From an uncultured Lentisphaerota bacterium (GTDB lineage Bacteria; Verrucomicrobiota; Kiritimatiellia; CAIQIC01), in contig CAITZM010000033.1 in the NCBI GenBank assembly GCA_903896925.1, positions 1-64,000 on the forward strand: a DNA stretch of 64,000 bases, written 5' to 3'. The position numbers were made by a program, and so were the translations under genes. Shown here one piece after another: positions 49,777 to 62,604 of the stretch. Numbering within the stretch: the first letter of the stretch is position 1; every line of letters starts with the position of its first letter. A model generated the notes under the pieces. It was not told the DNA's origin, made no database searches, and worked only from the letters and a program-made list of their open reading frames with translations.

Positions 49777-52700
49777 TCAGCCCTGCGCGGTGCAGCGGCG
49801 GCGGATGCGCCGCACGAGCCACGCGACGCCCACCAGGCCGAGCAGCGAGGCCGTGCCCGGCTCCGGCACCGCCGTCAACGTGATCTTATGCCCGTTGGCG
49901 AGGTTGTCACCGTAGTTGATCGTGAACAGATTGGTCGAACCGCTCTGGCCGACGACGGGCAGCATCATGCCCTGCGCCCACAGCACGCCGTTGCTCGGCC
50001 CGCCCACATCCATCAGCGTCAGCCACTGGGCCGCGTTCAGCGGGTCGAAGTCGGAAGCGCCTGTCCAATCCACGAGGGTGTAGGACGCGCCGGCGACCAG
50101 GCTGTAGGCCCGCAGGTCCAGCTTCAGCAGGCCGCCGGAGATGGTCAGGCTGTTGGTGACGATGCTCCGGTCGTTGACCTGGGCGCCGTTGCCCAGTTCC
50201 ATCTCCAGGATGCCGGCGTTGGCCAGCGTCAGGCTGGCGACATATTGCGTGGCGATGCTGTTGCCCGGCGCGTAGACGCCGCCGCTGCCGACCACCAGCG
50301 TGCTGAGCGGGCCGTTGCCGCCCACCAGGCCGTTGCTGATGACGGTGATGACGCCGCCGTTATGCAGGCCGTTCACGAAGTAGTTCGCGTTGCTGACGAG
50401 CGTGCCGCCACCGAAGTTGTTCGTGCCGGTCAGCCTCAGCGTGCCGCCGCCGGTCAAGGTGAAGGTGCTGGCGCCCGTCAAGACACCGCCGAAGACGTTG
50501 GTGGCGTTGACCAGCTGGAGGGTCAGGCCGCCGCCGCCGTTGGTCACCATGCTCCCGCTGGCGCCGGTGAGGCCGGCGATGGCCAGGCTGTTCCCGTCCA
50601 AATCCAGGACCCCCAGACTGTCCACATAGACCCGCGTGCTGCTGGAGAGCGTGGCCCCGCTGGCGAGCTTCAGGGTGCCGTTGCTGATGGTCGTGGTGCC
50701 GCTGTAGCTGTTCGCGCCGGAGAGCGTCAGGGTGCCAACGCCGGACTTGACCAGGTTGCCGCCGTTGGTGATGGCGCCGGTGAGCGCGAGGTTGCCGGCG
50801 GACGTATCGAAGTTGCCGGAGGTGGCCAGGTTGACGGTGTTGGTCAGCTGCCACGAGCCACCGTAGGTGCCGAGCGAGCCGCCGGCCATCGTCACCAGGC
50901 CGCTGCCCAACGGATTGTCCTGGCCCATCCGGAGCAGGCCGTTGCTGATCGTGGTGCCGCCGACGTAGCTATTGTTGGCATAGGCTGCGGCGAGGGTCTG
51001 CGTACCGCTGCCGCCCATGACCAACGCCAGGTTGTTATCGTTGACACCGACACTGCCCAGCGAGCCATCAAAGAAACTATCGCCCGTCGTATGGAGGGTC
51101 AGGATGGAGAGCGTGGCCGCACCGCCGATGACCCTGTTCGTATTGAGGCCACCGCCCCCGTTGGTGCTGACCAAGCCAGCCAGCGTCTGATTATAACCAT
51201 CGAGCATCAAGGTGGCGGTATTGGTCCGGGCCGCGACGCTTTGCGCCTGCAAATTCAGCACCGTCGTCGTCGGCAGCGCGTCGTTGATGCCCAGCTGAAC
51301 CGTGAGGCCATTAAAGTTGACGTTGCTCACAGCCAGATACGTGTTGCCATTATAGGACGATTGGCCCTTCAGGATGTACAGCGCGCCGCCATTGTTGGCC
51401 GCACTGGCGCGCAACGTCAGGTCGCCTGTGCCGCCAATCCCTTGATCCATGGTGACCAAGGCCTTGCCGGCGTTATAGGTGTTGATGGCCGCACCGCCAG
51501 CCAACGTGATGGGCCCTTGCAGTTCGAAGACACCCGTGTTCTCGTTCAGCAGCAGCGCGCCGTAGGCGGCGGGAGCGGTGCCGATACCGCTGCCCGAGAG
51601 CGTGAGGGGCACCGCATTGGTCGTGTGGGACGCGAACTGCAAGCGTGCGCCATTGGAAACCACGGCGCCCACGCTCGCCGGGCTTAGCGCATCCTGCCGG
51701 TCCAGGCGCAACACACCTTCGCCCACCAGCGTCCACCCCGTATAGGAGTTCGAGGCGTTAAGGGCCAAGACGCTGTTGCCGGTCTTGGTCAGCCCGCCGC
51801 CGCCGGAGAGCACTCCGCTATTGGTGGAAGCGGTGTTGTTGCCGCCCACCGTCAGAGTGATGGCATTGCCGCTGAGATTGGTCAGGCCGATGTTCTGCGT
51901 GCCGGCCAGGCCGCCGAGGGTGAAGGCCGTGGTGCCGCCGATGAAGCTGACCGTACCCGCCGCGTTCGTATAGTTCAGCGTGCTGTTGGTCAGGGCCAGC
52001 GTGCTGCCGATGACCAGCGTGCCGGCGTTGGGGATGGTGTCGCCGGAATAGGCGTTGGTGCCGGCTATCGTCAGCGTGCCGGCGGTGCTCTTGACCAGCG
52101 CCGCGCCGCCGTTGAACTGGCCCAGGTTCATCAGCGTGCCGGACTGCAGGTTCAAGACACCGAGCGGAGCGGCGGCGCTGCCGATGCTCGCGCCGGTCAT
52201 GTCCAGCGTGCCCCCGTTGAGGTTGATGGTGCTGGTGCAGTTGCTGGGACCGACCGTGATGGGGGCGTAGGATCTAAAGACGCCGCCGGAGAGGGTCAGC
52301 GTGCCATTGGCGGAGCCGGTGCCGGTTTGGGAGGCGAGCGAGAAGCTGCCGCCGGGATTCACGGTGAACTCGCCGCCGCCGACCATCAGCGTGGCCGTGG
52401 CCGTGGTGGTGTTCGCACCGCTCTTGGCCGCCATGACGATGCTCGTCACGGTGAAGACGCCGTTGTCGAAATAGAGATTGCCGAACGCGCTGCCGGCGCC
52501 GCCGCCGGTCTCGATGCCGTTGGTCAGGGCGCCGGCGGTGACGTACGCCGGATGGCCCAGCAGGTTGAGCGTGCCCGTGATGGTCGCACCGGTGCCGGTA
52601 CCCGTCTTGCTGCCGATGGTGATCTCGGTGGTCGCCCCGCTCTTGCCGCCAATGGTCACGGTGCCGGCGCTGCCGTTGGTCTGTGAGGCAAATTTGACCA

Positions 52701-55700
52701 CCCCGTTGGCCTTGGACAGGCCGATGGTGAGCTTATCCACGGCCAAGGTGTTGACACCTGCGCCCAGGATGAGGGTGCCGCCGGTGGCGCCTGCGTTCGA
52801 GCCAAGCGAGTGCCCAACTTGCAGCGCCGTGGCGGTGATGAGGTTGTTGGTGTCGGACAGGGTCAACTGGCCTGAACTCTTCTGGCCATAGCCGACACGC
52901 ACTTCGTTGAGCGGGACGGCGCTGCTGCCAAGGATCACGCTGCCCAGTCCGGAGAGGTCCAGTATGCCGCTGCTGGAACTGGTGTCCACGGCTTGGGCCC
53001 TGCCGATGACCACATACGCGGCTGTATTGGTGACCACCAAAGAACCCGCACCGCTCACGACCAATCTATTCGTGGTGGAAGTGGTGCCTCCAAAATCAAC
53101 ACCATTGGTGAGGCCGCCCGCCCCGTTGATCGTCAACGTCTGGCCGGCGCCGATGTTGATCATGTTCGTGGCGAACGCGCCGGTGGACTGCACCAGCAGT
53201 TGGCCTATGGTCTGGCTGTAGGAGGGGAGATCCAGATGGCCCGCGCCGGTGCCTTCGCCCAAGGACACTCCGCCCGTGGTCGGCAAAGCATCCGTGATAC
53301 CTACCCGCAAGGTATTCCCATTGTTGACCAAGGTGCCACCGCCGAAACTGCTGGCCGCCGTCAGCACCACGGTACCGCCGTTGCCGCCGCCGACGACCAG
53401 ATTGGAGGAACCGCCTATCGCCGCCGGATAGGTCAACACGCCGCCGCCACCGCCCAGGCGATAGGTCGTGCCATTGAAGGCCCACGCGCCGCTGTAGGTC
53501 CCGGTGCTGCCGGCCGCCATGCCGAGGAACAGGCTGTTGAAGCCACCCGTAGCAAAGTCAATCGTCTCGGAGTTGTCGCCGACCATGGCCAGGGCGCCCG
53601 CCGAGGCGGTGTCGAGCCTGCCGGAGCCCAGCCAGTTCACCACCGAGCCATAAGCGCCGGTGGCCACCAGCGCGCCGGCGCTGTTGATGAGCACGTTGCC
53701 GGTGGGCGGCAGGGCACTGGCGCCGAAGGCCAGCAAGCCGCCGTTGACGAACGTCCCCCCGCTGTAGCTGTTGGCGCCGGTGAGCTGCAGCACGCCGGTG
53801 CCGACCTTGGTCAGGCTGCCCCCTTGCGACAGCACGCCACCATAGACCAGATCCACGTTGTTATTGCCCAGGGAGAGCGCCACGTTCACGCCACCCGCGT
53901 TGGTCAGCGCCACATTGCCCGTGCCCGCCAACCCGCCCACGGTGTAGGCGTTGGTGGTGGCGGAGAAGCCGAGGCCGTCAGATGCAGCAGCATTGGTGAT
54001 CGTGACGAGCTGCGCCGCCGTGGAGCTCAGCAACAACAATTGCCCGCCGTTGATGGTGGTGGGGCTGACGAAGGCCGTGGTGTTGGTGAGCGCCAGCACG
54101 CCGCCGTTGATGGTCGTGGGCCCCGTATACTTGATCGTGGTGCCGCTCAAGGTTTGCGTGTAGGTCCCGTTCATGAGCAGCGCAATATTCCCGTCGATTC
54201 TGCCGGAATAGACGTGGTTCGTCGGGTTGGGATTGCCCAAGGTCAACACCACCTGGGTGGCATTCACGGTATTGGTGATCGTGCGGGTGAAGGACGAATC
54301 CCTCAGGCCTGCGAGCGTTTGGCTGAAGCCGTTGAAGTCGAAGAGGCCGGTGGCGGAACCGGCCACCTGCAACACAGCGTTCGTGGCCAGGCCGTTGTTC
54401 GCCCCCAGTTTGACCGTGTCCTGCGAGATGCTGAAATCGGCATACGAGCCGCCGCCGCTAAACACCACGGTACCGATCCGGCTCACCACCCCCACCGAAC
54501 TGGTGACGGCACCGGCGATGACCAGGGTTCCCCCGGCACCCGTGCTGCCAAAATGGCCGCCGGCGGCCGCGATGTTACTGATGGTAATCGGGCCACTGAA
54601 CGCGCCGGTACTCGCACCCGCGTATTCAAGCAGGCCGCGTCCCGAGGCGCCGCTATTGTTATACAGCGCGATGGCGTTGGTGATGGTGACCCCATCGCCT
54701 ACCGTCACGCGCACCGCGGTGCTGGTCATGACCAAGGTGCCTGAGCCCAGCGCAGCGTTGTTGTTCAAGGTCAATTGACCGGCGCTGATGAAGGTGCCGC
54801 CGCTGTAGGTGTTGCTGCCGCCGAGCGTCGTGGTGCCCGTGCCGGTCTTGGTCACGGTGCCCGTGCCCGCCAGGTTGGCCGTGGCGGTGCCGCCGGAGAA
54901 GGCGTAGGACGCACCCACCAGCGTGCCGTTGGAAATGACGCCACCGCTCAGGGTGACGACCCCATTGGTCACATTGGGGAACGTGTTCAGATCGTAGCCG
55001 CCGCCGCGCACGGTCACCGCGGCGGTGGCCGGCAACGCATTGAAGAGGCCCAACTGCAACACGCCGTTGCTGATGGTGGTGGTGCCGCTGAAGCTGTTCA
55101 CGGCGTTCAGCACGAGCACGCCGCCGCCGCTCTTGGTCAGGCCTCCGATGTTGGAGTCATCCAGGACGCTGGCGAAGGTTACGGGCAGGTTGGTGGTGTC
55201 GATGGCGATGGCGCCGGTGCTGTTCTTGATCCGCGCAGAAAGGTCCAGGGTAATGCCCGACCCGTACCGCAGGGTGCCGCCGCCAAAGGTGATATCGCCG
55301 CTGGTGCCCAGTGCCGCATCGTTGTTGAACGTCAGCACGCCGCCATTCAGCCGCGTCCCCCCGTTATAGGAGTTCACGCCGGAGAGCACCAGCGTACCGG
55401 TGCCGGTCTTGGTCAGGCTGCCGGCCCCACCGATGCTGTCGGCGACCAGCAGGGTGCCACCCGCGCCCACGCTCAGCCCGCCATTGAAGGTGCCCCAGTT
55501 GATGGCATAGCCAACCAGGTTGGTAATCAAGCTGCCGGTCACTTGCAACGTACCGCCATTGACATGGAGGTTGCCCGCCGCCGGCAGGTTGACGTAGTCA
55601 CCGATGGATAGCATCCCTCCCTCGAGTGCCATGCCACCGGTAAAGGTGTTCGTGCCGGACAGCGTCGTGACGCCACCGCTGTTGGTCAAGGCCCCGGAGC

Positions 55701-58700
55701 CGGCCAGGTTCGCATAGGCGGTGCCGCCGGAGAACGTATAGGACGAGCCGACCAGGGTGCCATTGGAGATGCCACCGGAGCTCATCGTGATCGCGCCATT
55801 GGTCACATTCGGGAAACCGTTGAGGTCATAGATGCCGCCGGCCATACTCACGGCGCCATTAGCAGGCAGCGCATTGAAGAGGCCCAACTGCAGCCTGCCG
55901 CCCGTGAGCAGCGTGGTCCCGCTGAACGTGTTGACGCCATTGAGCACCTGCAAGCCGGTGCCTGATTTGACCAGCGACCCGGCGCCTGAAAGGCTGCCGG
56001 AAAAAGCCCCCGACTGATTGCCGCCACCGAGCGTCAGCGTGACCGCGGCGCCGGCGTCGTTCGTCAAGGCGATGTCGCCCGTGCCGCTCAGGCCGCCGAT
56101 GGTGAAGGCGTTGGTCGCGAGGAAGCCCACGCCTTGGGCGACGAGGTTGGTGATGTCGCGGTCGCCGCCCATGGCATTGGCGGTGGCGAGCAACAGACGG
56201 CCACCGTTGATGGTCACCATGCTGTTGAAGCCCGACGTATTGGTCAAGATCAAGGTGCCGCCATTGACGGTGGTGGGCAGGCTGTAGGTGATCTGGCTGC
56301 CGCTGAGCGTCAGCACGCCGCTGCCGGACTTGGTCAGGGCCAATCTGTTGGAGGGACCGGTCTTGTTGCTGTCCCGCAAATAACCGGCATAGACGAAGTC
56401 GGCCGTGTTGTTCACCACCAACAGGCTGGGGCCTGAATTAGTATCCGTGACGGCGGCATCATTAACCTCGATGACGCCATTGGTGCCCGGGTCGGAGATG
56501 CCGGCGACGGTATTGGTGTGGCCCAGCAGCAGGAGCCGGCCATAGGATCCGGCGAAGGTGAGGATGGCGCTGGAAGCGATCTGGTCGCTGGCTTCCATCC
56601 GCACCAGGACATTGGCGCCGGCGGCGGCGGCATTGCCGATCTGGAAGTTGCCCGGCACCGTCAGACCGCCGGTCGTGTTGCTCAACGTGAGGGTGCCGTT
56701 GGCGGCGATGGTCATGCCGGGATAGGTGTTGTTGCCGGTGAGCGTCAGGTTGTTGGTGCCCAGTTTGACCAGACCCCGCGTGGCTTGCGGCGTGGCATAG
56801 AGGAAGTCACCGGCCGTCGTGTCGATGCCCACGAGCGCGTCGGCGTTCATGGCAACACCGGCCATCCCGTTGGCCCACAGGGTGTCTACGTTGGCGGATG
56901 TGAAGAACCCGCCGGCGGAGCCTACGCCCAGCGCCAGGGCTGCATTGGAAAGGACATTGATGGTGCCTGCCGGAGGCTGGGCCGACGTGTTGGCCAGGCT
57001 CAAGGCGCCGTTGCTGACGATGGTGCCGCCGCTGTAGGTATTCGCGCCGGAGAGGGTCAGCACGCCCGCGCCCTGCTTGATCAGGATGCCGTTCTGGCCC
57101 ACACCCACGGCGTCCTGGAGCTTCTGGACGATGAGGATGTCCTTGCCGTAGCCCACATTCAAGGTGCCGCCGTTGGTGGTCAGGAAGGCATAGGTCAGGT
57201 TGCTCATGTAGTTCAAACTGGTGGCATAGGGGCTGAGCGTGCCGCCATCCATGGTGAGTTCCGTATAAGTGCCCGAGGAGCCGCGTGTCGTCGGGAAGGA
57301 GGGCAACGTCACGAGGCTGCCCTTGCCAAAATAGAGCACGCCCGTGTTGTTGGGACTGCCCGCCAGGGCGCTGAACGCGGAGGCGCTGAAGACACCATTG
57401 CTGACGGCAAAATAGCCGTAGGTATTGGTGGTTAGCGAGCCGCCACCGACGTACAACGTGGTCACCGTGGCCGTGCCGCCGGATTGGTGATAATAGGCCG
57501 TGACGTTGGTTGCGAAATTACCGCTGCGCCCAAGCAGCAGAGAAGTGGCCCACATCTGGCCATTGGTCATCTCGAAGAGGCCGTGGGTATTGTGGTTCAC
57601 GCCCACATACAGATTGGGGCCGGCGTTCAAGGTGCCGCCATAGAGGTGATATTCGCCATAGGAACCGACGGTAGAGCCGTCTTGGATGGCCGTGCCGAAC
57701 GACACCGCGCCGGCGGTCTGCACGACGATGCCCGTCGCGGCGGCCAGGTTGCCCACCATGAAGTTTGCGCCGCTGACCGATCCGCCCTGGATATTGACCG
57801 TGGCGGTACTGTTCGCCAGTTTGCCTAGATAGATGTTGTTGGCGCCAGCCGAGACGTTCCCCGACACGTTCAGCGTACCCTCGCTCACAAGGGGGGCGCC
57901 GCCGAGGTTCGCATCGCCGGTCAGCGTCAACGTGCCCCCGCCGGCCTTCGTCCAGGCCCCCGCGCCGCTGATGTTGTTGGTAATGGTCAGCGTGGTGCCG
58001 GCATCCACCACATTGGTGCCCGCGCCGGCCAGCGTGACCGTGCGATTGCTCAGCGTCATGTCGCCGCTGGTTTGCAACGCGCCGCCGTTGAAGGTCAGGC
58101 TGTTGCCTGTGCCCAGCGCGGTGTCGTTGGTCACGTTCAGTATGCCGCCGTTGATCGTCACGCCGCCGCCAAAGGAGTTCGCGCCGGACAGGACCAGCGT
58201 ATTCGGGCCGAGCTTGGTCACGCCGGCCCCGGCGAGCGTGATGGCCGTGGCCCACTCGCCGCTGCCATTGCTGGTGTCGAAGCCGAGCGCGGAACCGGCA
58301 GCAAAGGCGCCGCTATTGCCCAGCAGGTTATTGATCTGCGTGGTGTTCCAGTCGCTGCCGCCGCCGTAATTGATCGCCAATGTCGCGCCGTTGGACACCG
58401 CCAGCCTGCCCGCCGTGGCGTAGCCGGGCAGCGCATTCGTGGTCGTGGCCAGCAGGGAGCCCGCCTGGATCACCGTGCCGCCGGTGTAGGTGTTCGCGCC
58501 GGAGAGCGTCAGCATACCTGCGCCCTGCTTGGTCAAACTGCCGCTGCCGTTGGCGCCGATGGAGACCGTCGGCACCGTCGGATTGGTGCTGCCGCCGCCC
58601 ATCAAGGTGACCACGGGCGCCAGGGTGTAACCAACGCCGGGGCTGGTGATGATCAGGTTGGTCACCTGCCCATAGGTCAGGCTGCCCAGCGTCAGGTCGG

Positions 58701-61362
58701 TCTGCGCGATGGCCGTCGCGCCCGTGCCGTTGCCCGAGATGGCCACATAGGGCGCGCCGACAAAGCCACCCAGGCCGGAGCCGGACAGGCTCAAACCCGT
58801 CAGCCCGCCGGTCGGCGGGGCAAGCAGGTCCTGCGAAATGGTCACGGCCAAGCCATTGTCATCGATGATGGCGCCGCCGGTGCGCACATAGGCGGCATCC
58901 ACGGAGCCGGAAGCGCTGCCCATGATGACCCCGGTCTGCGCCGCGCGGAAGGTGCCGCCGTTGAAGTTGACGACCGCGTAACCCGTGTTGGTGCTGTTGT
59001 AGCCCTTGAAGATGGAACTGGCCTGCAGCACACCGCCGTTGAGGTTGAGGAAACCGGTGGCATTGGTGCCGGCGGCAGCTTGCCGGTTGATCCCCACCGA
59101 GGCGTTGGAGAGGAGCACGGTGGCCGTGCCGTCCACGGTAAATTCACCGCGGCCGAAGGAACCGTTGTTATAGCCCACCCAGATGGGTACTCCGCTGCTC
59201 AGGGTCGTCAGGCCGCCGGCGAGGTAGACCGTGCCGGTGCTGGTGCTGCCGCCAATGATAAGCCCGCTGCCGGTTATCAGATTGGTGCCGCCGTATTGAT
59301 AGAGCAAACCCTGGCCCGCCGCGCCCACCTGGATCCAGGTGGTATTGGTCATCACGCCACCGCTCAATTGATACATGCCGTAAGCGCTCGCGTTGTTGCC
59401 CATGTAGAGCTGGTTGGCCTGCCGGAGCGCGCCACCCGTCTGATTGATCACACCCACGCCCCCGGCATTGGCGCCCACATAGACTGTGCGGCCGGCATAG
59501 ATCGAACCGCCGGCCAGATACACCAGGCCGGTACCCGTGGCGCCGGCGTAGAAATTCGTCTGCACACTCAACAGGGCGTTCTCCTGCACCTGCAGCATGC
59601 CCCAGGCGGCGGCATTGTTGCCCACGACGAAGTTGTTTTGCAGCTTGCGGAAGACGGCCGTCCCTCCCAGCACGTTGGTGGCTATATCGCCGTTCGCATT
59701 GCCGACATAATCCACACTGTTGTGGATGCTGGTGATCGAGCCGCCCACCTGCACGAAGGTGCCGGCCTTGACCTGGAAGCCGGAGCTGGCGTTGAGGGTG
59801 GCGTTTCCCGCGGCATTGCTGAAGATGAGCGTGCCGGTGCCCACCTTGACCAACGAGCCGGTACCGGTGACCGGGTTGGCGAAGACCAGCGTGGTGCCGG
59901 CATCCGCCGAGTTGGTGAACGGGCCCGCCAGGACCAGGTCGCGGTTGTTCACGGTCAGGCTGCCGCTGTTCCACAGCGTGCCGCTGTTGACCGTCAGCGC
60001 ACTGCCGCCCACGCCCAGGGCGGCCGCATTGCTGATGTTCAGCGCGCCGCCGTTGATCGTCACCGGGCCGCTGAAGTTGTTGGCGCCGGAGAGCGTCAGC
60101 GTGTTCGCGCCCAGTTTGGCCAGGCCCAAAACACTGGTCGTGGTGTTCGAAAACACGGGGGCGTACTCGCGGTTGGCGAGGGTGGTGTCGAAGCCGAGGC
60201 TGGCGCCGTCGGCGAAATAGCCCGTGTCCCGGATGGTGGCGATCTCACTGTCGAGCACAGCGTTCCCCACCGCCAGGATCGCGCCGTTGGAGATGGCATA
60301 GCGCCCTGCCGCATTCCAGCCCGGCAAGGCGGAGGGGATGGAAATGATCAAAGCACCGGTCCGGATGTCCGTGAGACCGCCATAGGTGTTGACGTTGGTC
60401 AAGGTCAGGTTGCCCGCACCCGCCTTGATCAGACCGTAGGTGTTGACGCCATCGTCAATCACGCCGCCCACCGTCAGCATATTGGTCCTGACCGTCACCG
60501 TCCGGCTCCCGCCCAACAGGGTCACCGCGCCGTTGCCCGTGTCCCAGTTGAAGGAACCGCCAAACGTGAAGTCACCGATCCAGTTTTGCGGGTTGTTGTT
60601 GGCCGTCGTCCGCGCGGCCGTAACATCCACCGTGCCACCGGCGAGCTTAAAGACGCCGGCGGCGATGCCCAGCGCCCCGTTGTTGCCCAGCACCAGGGTG
60701 CCATTGTTTAACGTGATGCCTCCGTTGAAGGTGTTCGACGCTCCCAGATACAACGAACCTGTCCCGGTCTTGATGATGCCATTGCCGGCCGTGGTGCTGG
60801 AAACCACACCCGAGGCATTGATGCCGCCGGTGCCGTCAAAGGTGAGGAGCTTGGCATTCAGGTTGATAGTGTTCTGGCTGTTGAGGATGAGGGTATTGGC
60901 CGAATTGTTCTGCCACGTCTGCGTAGCGCCGAGGGTAAAAGGCAACCTAAATTTATCTACGGTCGTCCCGAAGACCACCGGTCCCGCGCCCGCGTTGATG
61001 GTGAGACCGGCGGCGCCCAGCGTGATGGTACGATTGGCTATGCCATCGGTTTTGATGTCGGTTTGCGCGGTGCTGCTGAAAACAAAGCCCGAGACCGAGA
61101 GGGCTGCGGCCAGCGTCGCGGTCTGCGCCGAGTTGAGCGAGGAGACGTTGAACCAGGCGATGCTGCCCGCGCCGGGCGCCGCAAGGGGATCGCTGCCAGA
61201 GCCATCAGGGGCCGTGTTCCAGTTGGCCTGCAACGCCCAATTGGTATTGGGCGTTCCGCTGCCGTCCCAATACAGAATTTCCGCCTTTGCTGAGCCCAGC
61301 GCACCTGCCACCGCCAGCCACAGCCAGCCCGTTTTTCTCAGCCAGTCGAACGAGTTTTTCAT
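49777..61362 (-). CDS. Giant (3861 aa) autotransporter-associated beta-strand-repeat protein with PEP-CTERM sorting signal
   Basis: N-terminal MKNSFDWLRKTGWLWLAVAGALGSAKAEILYWDGSG; dozens of GxLTLSGANTYSGGTxIxxGxL repeats; C-terminus VPEPGTASLLGLVGVAWLVRRIRRRCTAQG. Confidence 0.93.
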   Translation of the reverse strand: MKNSFDWLRKTGWLWLAVAGALGSAKAEILYWDGSGTPNTNWALQANWNTAPDGSGSDPLAAPGAGSIAWFNVSSLNSAQTATLAAALSVSGFVFSSTAQTDIKTDGIANRTITLGAAGLTINAGAGPVVFGTTVDKFRLPFTLGATQTWQNNSANTLILNSQNTINLNAKLLTFDGTGGINASGVVSSTTAGNGIIKTGTGSLYLGASNTFNGGITLNNGTLVLGNNGALGIAAGVFKLAGGTVDVTAARTTANNNPQNWIGDFTFGGSFNWDTGNGAVTLLGGSRTVTVRTNMLTVGGVIDDGVNTYGLIKAGAGNLTLTNVNTYGGLTDIRTGALIISIPSALPGWNAAGRYAISNGAILAVGNAVLDSEIATIRDTGYFADGASLGFDTTLANREYAPVFSNTTTSVLGLAKLGANTLTLSGANNFSGPVTINGGALNISNAAALGVGGSALTVNSGTLWNSGSLTVNNRDLVLAGPFTNSADAGTTLVFANPVTGTGSLVKVGTGTLIFSNAAGNATLNASSGFQVKAGTFVQVGGSITSIHNSVDYVGNANGDIATNVLGGTAVFRKLQNNFVVGNNAAAWGMLQVQENALLSVQTNFYAGATGTGLVYLAGGSIYAGRTVYVGANAGGVGVINQTGGALRQANQLYMGNNASAYGMYQLSGGVMTNTTWIQVGAAGQGLLYQYGGTNLITGSGLIIGGSTSTGTVYLAGGLTTLSSGVPIWVGYNNGSFGRGEFTVDGTATVLLSNASVGINRQAAAGTNATGFLNLNGGVLQASSIFKGYNSTNTGYAVVNFNGGTFRAAQTGVIMGSASGSVDAAYVRTGGAIIDDNGLAVTISQDLLAPPTGGLTGLSLSGSGLGGFVGAPYVAISGNGTGATAIAQTDLTLGSLTYGQVTNLIITSPGVGYTLAPVVTLMGGGSTNPTVPTVSIGANGSGSLTKQGAGMLTLSGANTYTGGTVIQAGSLLATTTNALPGYATAGRLAVSNGATLAINYGGGSDWNTTQINNLLGNSGAFAAGSALGFDTSNGSGEWATAITLAGAGVTKLGPNTLVLSGANSFGGGVTINGGILNVTNDTALGTGNSLTFNGGALQTSGDMTLSNRTVTLAGAGTNVVDAGTTLTITNNISGAGAWTKAGGGTLTLTGDANLGGAPLVSEGTLNVSGNVSAGANNIYLGKLANSTATVNIQGGSVSGANFMVGNLAAATGIVVQTAGAVSFGTAIQDGSTVGSYGEYHLYGGTLNAGPNLYVGVNHNTHGLFEMTNGQMWATSLLLGRSGNFATNVTAYYHQSGGTATVTTLYVGGGSLTTNTYGYFAVSNGVFSASAFSALAGSPNNTGVLYFGKGSLVTLPSFPTTRGSSGTYTELTMDGGTLSPYATSLNYMSNLTYAFLTTNGGTLNVGYGKDILIVQKLQDAVGVGQNGILIKQGAGVLTLSGANTYSGGTIVSNGALSLANTSAQPPAGTINVLSNAALALGVGSAGGFFTSANVDTLWANGMAGVAMNADALVGIDTTAGDFLYATPQATRGLVKLGTNNLTLTGNNTYPGMTIAANGTLTLSNTTGGLTVPGNFQIGNAAAAGANVLVRMEASDQIASSAILTFAGSYGRLLLLGHTNTVAGISDPGTNGVIEVNDAAVTDTNSGPSLLVVNNTADFVYAGYLRDSNKTGPSNRLALTKSGSGVLTLSGSQITYSLPTTVNGGTLILTNTSGFNSMVTINGGRLLLATANAMGGDRDITNLVAQGVGFLATNAFTIGGLSGTGDIALTNDAGAAVTLTLGGGNQSGAFSGSLSGAGSLVKSGTGLQVLNGVNTFSGTTLLTGGRLQLGLFNALPANGAVSMAGGIYDLNGFPNVTNGAITMSSGGISNGTLVGSSYTFSGGTAYANLAGSGALTNSGGVTTLSGTNTFTGGMALEGGMLSIGDYVNLPAAGNLHVNGGTLQVTGSLITNLVGYAINWGTFNGGLSVGAGGTLLVADSIGGAGSLTKTGTGTLVLSGVNSYNGGTRLNGGVLTFNNDAALGTSGDITFGGGTLRYGSGITLDLSARIKNSTGAIAIDTTNLPVTFASVLDDSNIGGLTKSGGGVLVLNAVNSFSGTTTISNGVLQLGLFNALPATAAVTVRGGGYDLNTFPNVTNGVVTLSGGVISNGTLVGASYAFSGGTATANLAGTGTVTKTGTGTTTLGGSNTYSGGTFISAGQLTLNNNAALGSGTLVMTSTAVRVTVGDGVTITNAIALYNNSGASGRGLLEYAGASTGAFSGPITISNIAAAGGHFGSTGAGGTLVIAGAVTSSVGVVSRIGTVVFSGGGSYADFSISQDTVKLGANNGLATNAVLQVAGSATGLFDFNGFSQTLAGLRDSSFTRTITNTVNATQVVLTLGNPNPTNHVYSGRIDGNIALLMNGTYTQTLSGTTIKYTGPTTINGGVLALTNTTAFVSPTTINGGQLLLLSSTAAQLVTITNAAASDGLGFSATTNAYTVGGLAGTGNVALTNAGGVNVALSLGNNNVDLVYGGVLSQGGSLTKVGTGVLQLTGANSYSGGTFVNGGLLAFGASALPPTGNVLINSAGALVATGAYGSVVNWLGSGRLDTASAGALAMVGDNSETIDFATGGFNSLFLGMAAGSTGTYSGAWAFNGTTYRLGGGGGVLTYPAAIGGSSNLVVGGGNGGTVVLTAASSFGGGTLVNNGNTLRVGITDALPTTGGVSLGEGTGAGHLDLPSYSQTIGQLLVQSTGAFATNMINIGAGQTLTINGAGGLTNGVDFGGTTSTTNRLVVSGAGSLVVTNTAAYVVIGRAQAVDTSSSSGILDLSGLGSVILGSSAVPLNEVRVGYGQKSSGQLTLSDTNNLITATALQVGHSLGSNAGATGGTLILGAGVNTLAVDKLTIGLSKANGVVKFASQTNGSAGTVTIGGKSGATTEITIGSKTGTGTGATITGTLNLLGHPAYVTAGALTNGIETGGGAGSAFGNLYFDNGVFTVTSIVMAAKSGANTTTATATLMVGGGEFTVNPGGSFSLASQTGTGSANGTLTLSGGVFRSYAPITVGPSNCTSTINLNGGTLDMTGASIGSAAAPLGVLNLQSGTLMNLGQFNGGAALVKSTAGTLTIAGTNAYSGDTIPNAGTLVIGSTLALTNSTLNYTNAAGTVSFIGGTTAFTLGGLAGTQNIGLTNLSGNAITLTVGGNNTASTNSGVLSGGGGLTKTGNSVLALNASNSYTGWTLVGEGVLRLDRQDALSPASVGAVVSNGARLQFASHTTNAVPLTLSGSGIGTAPAAYGALLLNENTGVFELQGPITLAGGAAINTYNAGKALVTMDQGIGGTGDLTLRASAANNGGALYILKGQSSYNGNTYLAVSNVNFNGLTVQLGINDALPTTTVLNLQAQSVAARTNTATLMLDGYNQTLAGLVSTNGGGGLNTNRVIGGAATLSILTLHTTGDSFFDGSLGSVGVNDNNLALVMGGSGTQTLAAAYANNSYVGGTTISNGLLRMGQDNPLGSGLVTMAGGSLGTYGGSWQLTNTVNLATSGNFDTSAGNLALTGAITNGGNLVKSGVGTLTLSGANSYSGTTTISNGTLKLASGATLSSSTRVYVDSLGVLDLDGNSLAIAGLTGASGSMVTNGGGGLTLQLVNATNVFGGVLTGASTFTLTGGGTLRLTGTNNFGGGTLVSNANYFVNGLHNGGVITVISNGLVGGNGPLSTLVVGSGGVYAPGNSIATQYVASLTLANAGILEMELGNGAQVNDRSIVTNSLTISGGLLKLDLRAYSLVAGASYTLVDWTGASDFDPLNAAQWLTLMDVGGPSNGVLWAQGMMLPVVGQSGSTNLFTINYGDNLANGHKITLTAVPEPGTASLLGLVGVAWLVRRIRRRCTAQG

Positions 61363-61824: not shown

Positions 61825-62604
61825 TTAGCGCCAGGACCGGATGTGGGTCGTGTCGTTTTTGTTCGGCCGACAAGTGCTGCCGCGGTTGGTCGGTCCCCAC
61901 GACCAGACCGCCACGCCACGCCGGACGATTTCGCCGTCGGTGACATCGGTATTTAAGTTGCCCACCAGGCCGTCGTGCGTCATGTCCATGGCCACCACAT
62001 AGCGGTTGCCCCAAGGGTCGGCGAATTCACCCTGCCTGGCTTCCACCGTGATGGATGAGTTGCCGGGCAGCCAGTGGGTCAGGGTGGCGGGCGCGTTGGT
62101 CTGGATGCTTTTCTCGGAGACCTGCAGATAGACCCGCTGGCGCGGATTCTGGTTTTTCCAGGCGGTCCCGAGGCCGAGCAGGTCTTGCACCGTCCCAGGC
62201 ACGTTGCTGCCCCGCAGGGTGGGAATCAGCTTGTCGTAGCCCCAACAGATTTCGTCGTTCCCCGCGCCCTCATCGGGATATTTTCCGTAGTCCACGAAAT
62301 AGGCCTTGATGGCCGTCTCAATCAGTTTGACTTCGCATTGGGCCTGCGTGATTTCCGCCCGCTTGAGGCCGCCGATCACCGCGGGCAGCAGCAGGCCTGC
62401 GAGAATGGCGATGATGGCGATGACGATCAGCAGTTCAATCATCGTGAACGCCCGCCGGATGCGGGCCGGAGCTGGCGCGAGATGGAGCCTTGTATCGGGG
62501 GAACCGCTGGTGTCCCCATGCAGGGTGGCCGCCTGCACCTGGCCCGGCGTGTCCCCCCACGCCGCCCACCCACCACGCCCAGTCCGGTCGAAAGTGTGTT
62601 TCAT
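61825..62604 (-). CDS. Type II secretion GspG-like pseudopilin
   Basis: RRAFTMIELLIVIAIIAILAGLLLPAVIGGLKRAEITQAQCEVKLIETAIKAYFVDYGKYPDEG; DPWGNRYVV. The start codon is uncertain. Confidence 0.83.
   Translation of the reverse strand: MKHTFDRTGRGGWAAWGDTPGQVQAATLHGDTSGSPDTRLHLAPAPARIRRAFTMIELLIVIAIIAILAGLLLPAVIGGLKRAEITQAQCEVKLIETAIKAYFVDYGKYPDEGAGNDEICWGYDKLIPTLRGSNVPGTVQDLLGLGTAWKNQNPRQRVYLQVSEKSIQTNAPATLTHWLPGNSSITVEARQGEFADPWGNRYVVAMDMTHDGLVGNLNTDVTDGEIVRRGVAVWSWGPTNRGSTCRPNKNDTTHIRSWR

Follow-up and report, generated by a model that had tools for sequence, protein, structure and literature searches.

According to the portions available of two published accounts (PMC1569441; PMC12188702), PEP-CTERM proteins are exported through Sec, tethered by their C-terminal tail, cleaved by an exosortase and moved to the outside of the cell or into exopolysaccharide, and the first of these portions also notes their richness in Ser, Thr and Asn. 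Large sets occur in PVC bacteria, with 65 members in Verrucomicrobium spinosum and 23 in Akkermansia muciniphila (PMC1569441, PMC4960237, as given in the extracts available), and parts of the PVC superphylum are enriched in huge proteins (PMC11573180). In other species, loss of the exosortase altered the PEP-CTERM exoproteome and abolished biofilm formation (PMC12188702), floc formation was promoted by a PEP-CTERM protein (PMC9850573), and experimental support extends to biofilm, motility and floc formation (PMC9850573; PMC12188702). PATR repeats (PF12951, TIGR02601) belong to a different setting, the passengers of type Va autotransporters such as IcsA and the subtilase autotransporters, which end in a PF03797 barrel.

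The protein described here is encoded within a stretch of 64,000 nucleotides that was analysed as a whole (the window). Like PEP-CTERM/exosortase substrates (TIGR02595, PF07589), it has a tripartite C-terminal tail, a signal-peptide-like start and a composition rich in Ser, Thr and Asn, it is one of many such proteins in its genome, and exosortase and EPS-type genes are present; unlike them, it is very long, is built of PATR repeats, and has a lineage-specific module of ~110 aa ahead of the tail. Giant PATR-built members likewise distinguish this repertoire from those of V. spinosum and A. muciniphila, as far as the available extracts describe them. With type Va passengers the protein shares its repeat family and a predicted beta solenoid, the IcsA passenger being the solved structure closest to its repeats, but it ends in a PEP-CTERM tail and has no C-terminal barrel. 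The PATR and PEP-CTERM domain models are standard annotation; an open-access literature search for proteins combining the two (beta-strand repeat proteins) found none, which is weak evidence of novelty.

The giant gene and its product

The giant gene (Table 1) is open for 3861 codons from an ATG that a GGAG precedes by a few bases, and its GC content by codon position (0.55/0.54/0.86) is uniform over its length, as in genuine high-GC coding sequence. It contains no DNA tandem repeats, so assembly collapse is unlikely to have created or shortened the frame. The product has a high content of Gly, Thr, Ala, Asn and Ser (Ser, Thr and Asn together account for 30% of residues). Cysteine occurs just twice, once in the tail, where it follows the arginine cluster, and the N-terminus is a putative signal peptide that is likely cut after AKA.

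Both TIGR02601 (NCBIfam, 311 bits) and PF12951 (Pfam, 240 bits) match the protein in 22 stretches, and a profile rebuilt from its paralogues counts 25 cores. The passenger features of a type Va autotransporter are present in these stretches and in an all-beta model, but neither NCBIfam nor Pfam finds a barrel domain in the protein, and the C-terminal PF03797 domain of such autotransporters is absent. The domain models thus confirm the preliminary description of a PATR-repeat frame with a PEP-CTERM tail and no barrel, but its further statement that the protein consists of nearly all GxLTLSGANTYSGGT repeats was somewhat overstated: the 22-25 PATR cores, of ~30 residues each, make up about one-fifth of the protein, and the sequence outside them is similarly rich in Gly, Thr and Asn. 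Structure prediction, which it had proposed as a check, gave an all-beta, solenoid-like domain of fair confidence (AlphaFold2, pLDDT 80.9, pTM 0.81) for one repeat block, which spans residues 1960-2240 and was modelled from an alignment to six further blocks of this protein. The best PDB match of this model in Foldseek is the IcsA passenger, though weakly (E 0.1, probability 0.90, TM 0.31), and IcsA is also the only find of a sequence search (E 3.4e-4). To judge from the model, the fold is likely a beta solenoid.

The tail is recognized by TIGR02595 (17.8 bits in a whole-protein scan, barely above the cut-off of 16) and by PF07589 (23.2 bits, cut-off 20.7). Its pattern is found in all ten of the long PATR frames tested (see below) versus 1 in 20,000 shuffled tails, and in one of the 145 window frames of at least 150 codons, namely the giant frame itself; across the ten long proteins, the tripeptide PEP occurs once per protein, at the tail. 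A single-sequence AlphaFold2 model of the C-terminal 432 aa is of low confidence (pLDDT 44).

Table 1. Features of the giant gene and its product, in window coordinates
Feature	Position	Strand	Basis
Giant PATR-repeat PEP-CTERM protein, 3861 aa	49777..61362	-	Open frame; TIGR02601 and PF12951, 22 stretches each
Signal-peptide-like N-terminus, residues 1-27 (MKNSFDWLRKTGWLWLAVAGALGSAKA)	61282..61362	-	Read from sequence by eye
PATR-core region, residues 197-3658, predicted beta-solenoid repeats	50389..60774	-	25 cores, profile; AlphaFold2 model
C-terminal module, ~135 aa, common to paralogues, includes PEP-CTERM tail	49780..50187	-	Alignment A1; genome searches
PEP-CTERM sorting signal, residues 3832-3856: VPEP, hydrophobic helix, RRIRRR	49795..49869	-	TIGR02595, PF07589, tail test

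Paralogues and relatives

The genome (7.2 Mb in 191 contigs, with the window on contig 33) contains 150 scored TIGR02601 repeat matches. Among the frames read around these matches, ten long PATR frames have a complete C-terminus (7643, 5053, 4784, 3861, 3021, 2550, 1866, 1641, 1586 and 1245 codons, counted from stop to stop except for the window gene, 3861, which is counted from its ATG), and all ten end in V/I-PEP followed by a hydrophobic stretch and basic residues; a shorter frame of 790 codons on contig 48 also has a PEP-CTERM tail. The contig of the window gene encodes a second giant PATR protein (G000:C33:91500-111829) of at least 6776 codons that reaches the contig end. Another giant, of 7785 codons, starts contig 187 and breaks off within the C-terminal module at the contig end, and its missing end may be the sequence with which the small contig 135 opens, within the same module and with a PEP-CTERM tail (G000:C135:14-265). 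A frame of 1329 codons on contig 166, with two PATR matches, a membrane-regulator-like start and no PEP-CTERM tail, was judged doubtful and left out of the count of ten.

The sole PF03797 barrel protein of the genome has no PATR repeats and is located on a contig other than that of the window (G000:C13, 3695-5020, L081; ~175 bits); its N-terminus is short, and a PATR passenger is lacking. A similar orphan barrel occurs in G003 (C81, from 1933, L116; ~175 bits, also with a short N-terminus and without a PATR passenger), and in both genomes a hybrid-cluster-protein-like gene adjoins it.

The C-terminal module (alignment A1) has matches in all three of the other genomes of the genus, where it frequently ends long frames (e.g., 3818 and 3937 codons), and in two of the same family (14 matches in G004, one weak match in G005); of 195 genomes sampled more widely across the phylum, only 10 have a match at E 1e-7. 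Strong, near-full-length matches in this sample are limited to the genus, so the part preceding the PEP-CTERM tail is lineage-specific, and since the ~135-aa module is almost restricted to the bacterial family, the PATR PEP-CTERM set is a lineage-specific expansion. The 3818-aa frame of G002 was considered as an ortholog and rejected: because it is 36% identical in a forced alignment and has different neighbours, it is regarded as a family member only. A match in Verrucomicrobia bacterium LW23 (L098) was a chance one, with no repeat frame present, and the phages searched gave no match.

Exosortase genes are encoded by 37 of 38 genomes (own included), PATR repeats by 27 of the 38 and an above-cut-off barrel by only five of the 38, so PATR repeats in this class mostly occur without a recognized autotransporter barrel. 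The preliminary description had pointed to a PEP-CTERM tail in place of a barrel; the tail is present and the barrel is absent, but this arrangement is the rule in the genome and not an exception, and among relatives exosortase genes are near-universal and barrels rare.

A different family within the order has giant PATR frames of 12857 (G017:C14), 10689 (G019:C56) and 4944 codons (G015:C39; L104-L109, L115) that lack a PEP-CTERM tail. These have a common motif (~WTYHPxxFYxxPTRWMG) at or near the C-terminus, which may represent a further type of terminal module in giant secreted proteins.

Exosortase genes and gene neighbourhood

The genome encodes two exosortases (PF09721, 194 and 178 bits; TIGR02602, 144 and 155 bits, both above the cut-off of 105.6), which score below the 208-bit cut-off of the XrtA model (TIGR03109, 162 and 151 bits) and are assigned at the family level only. 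Both have a PCSG motif and, downstream, Asn-x-x-Arg, which we take to be the catalytic residues expected of the family. An EpsI-like gene comes next after each exosortase gene. At the contig 188 locus there follow a gene that by eye resembles an undecaprenyl-phosphate sugar transferase and one for a PEP-CTERM protein; the contig 32 locus includes a WecG-type glycosyltransferase. Genome-wide there are ~38 PEP-CTERM places and three Wza-type polysaccharide-export proteins (PF02563). The absence of any exosortase had been named in advance as grounds for abandoning the proposal of exosortase processing, and with two genes found in the genome-wide search these grounds fall away.

The giant gene is set apart from its neighbours by gaps of ~0.5-0.7 kb. 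Other genes on the minus strand of the window are mostly polysaccharide-degrading, including sulfatases, rhamnosidases (GH106 and six-hairpin types) and GH28, as well as GH99-like enzymes, a heparinase-like lyase and GDSL esterases; positions 8283-47522 are dense with sulfatase, rhamnosidase, GH127, GH106, GH28 and other such genes, mostly on this strand. The gene content fits a polysaccharide-degrading lifestyle, and nothing ties the giant protein to these enzymes. An earlier speculation that it anchors exoenzymes is unsupported, given the gaps on either side, and was rejected because the protein has no recognized enzyme-binding domain. A pseudopilin gene (61825-62604, minus strand) was considered as a partner and rejected, no prepilin motif being found in the stretches fetched around other PATR genes. 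Gene content, together with a weak Verru_Chthon pilin match, points to the PVC superphylum.

Proposed route and location

We infer the cleavage, outer-membrane route, final location and function of the giant protein as follows, with a probability of roughly 0.8 for the reading as a whole. The N-terminal signal would direct the protein into Sec, the PEP-CTERM helix and arginine cluster would anchor it in the inner membrane, and exosortase would cut it at the PEP motif; once freed, it would form an extended beta-helical rod composed of autotransporter-passenger-type repeats and come to lie in the outer envelope or the exopolysaccharide matrix, where it would most likely act in adhesion or matrix stability. 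Of the exosortase-processed surface fibre proposed in the preliminary description, an exosortase-processed envelope protein is well supported by the two exosortases, the ~38 PEP-CTERM places and the nine further long paralogues with PATR repeats and a PEP-CTERM tail, and a fibre fits the predicted beta solenoid; its location at the surface we infer.

The main rival to placement at the surface or in the matrix is retention: the protein would remain in the periplasm or the inner membrane and serve there as a scaffold, either structural or polysaccharide-binding. In Akkermansia, intracellular fractions contained more of the PEP-CTERM proteins than outer-membrane fractions did (PMC4960237, in the extract available), the periplasm is rich in scytonemin PEP-CTERM proteins (PMC12188702), and no route across the outer membrane was identified here for the giant protein, but a rod this long would be hard to fit into the periplasm, and other exosortase substrates are found in the exoproteome (PMC12188702); retention is therefore judged unlikely. 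Export of the passenger-like giant by a separate barrel, as in a two-partner system, might be suggested by the strong PF03797 barrel without PATR in this genome (contig 13) and in one sister species, but is very improbable because two other genomes of the genus have the family and no PF03797 barrel; moreover, the barrel gene lies on a different contig, and the PEP-CTERM tail would be left unexplained.

Hardly credible at all is the explanation that the tail arose by chance or that faulty assembly produced the frame. The assembly is indeed a draft, and the paralogues on contigs 33 and 187 reach contig ends, but the recurrence of the tail in all ten long PATR frames tested and its rarity among shuffled tails argue against chance, and the uniform coding signal, the lack of DNA tandem repeats and the similar-sized frames of sister species, such as that of G002, argue against an artefact. 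What the sequence itself establishes is the architecture of repeats, the tail, the exosortase genes and the family of paralogues. The frame is real, intact and a well-supported candidate exosortase substrate, one of a lineage-specific set.

The giant protein thus exemplifies well a kind of cell-envelope protein that is already known, and is not an oddity. It is suggested, tentatively, that the whole passenger-type beta-helix repertoire of the family, with proteins of up to >7,600 residues, takes the exosortase route and not the autotransporter route, and that the lineage-specific C-terminal module may be required for giant rods to leave through the outer membrane. The passage of exosortase substrates across the outer membrane is described as an unresolved question (PMC12188702), for which a single genome with at least ten giant, rod-like substrates and a C-terminal module common to them is a demanding test case. 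The PATR PEP-CTERM set is also a warning that PATR repeats alone are not evidence of an autotransporter.
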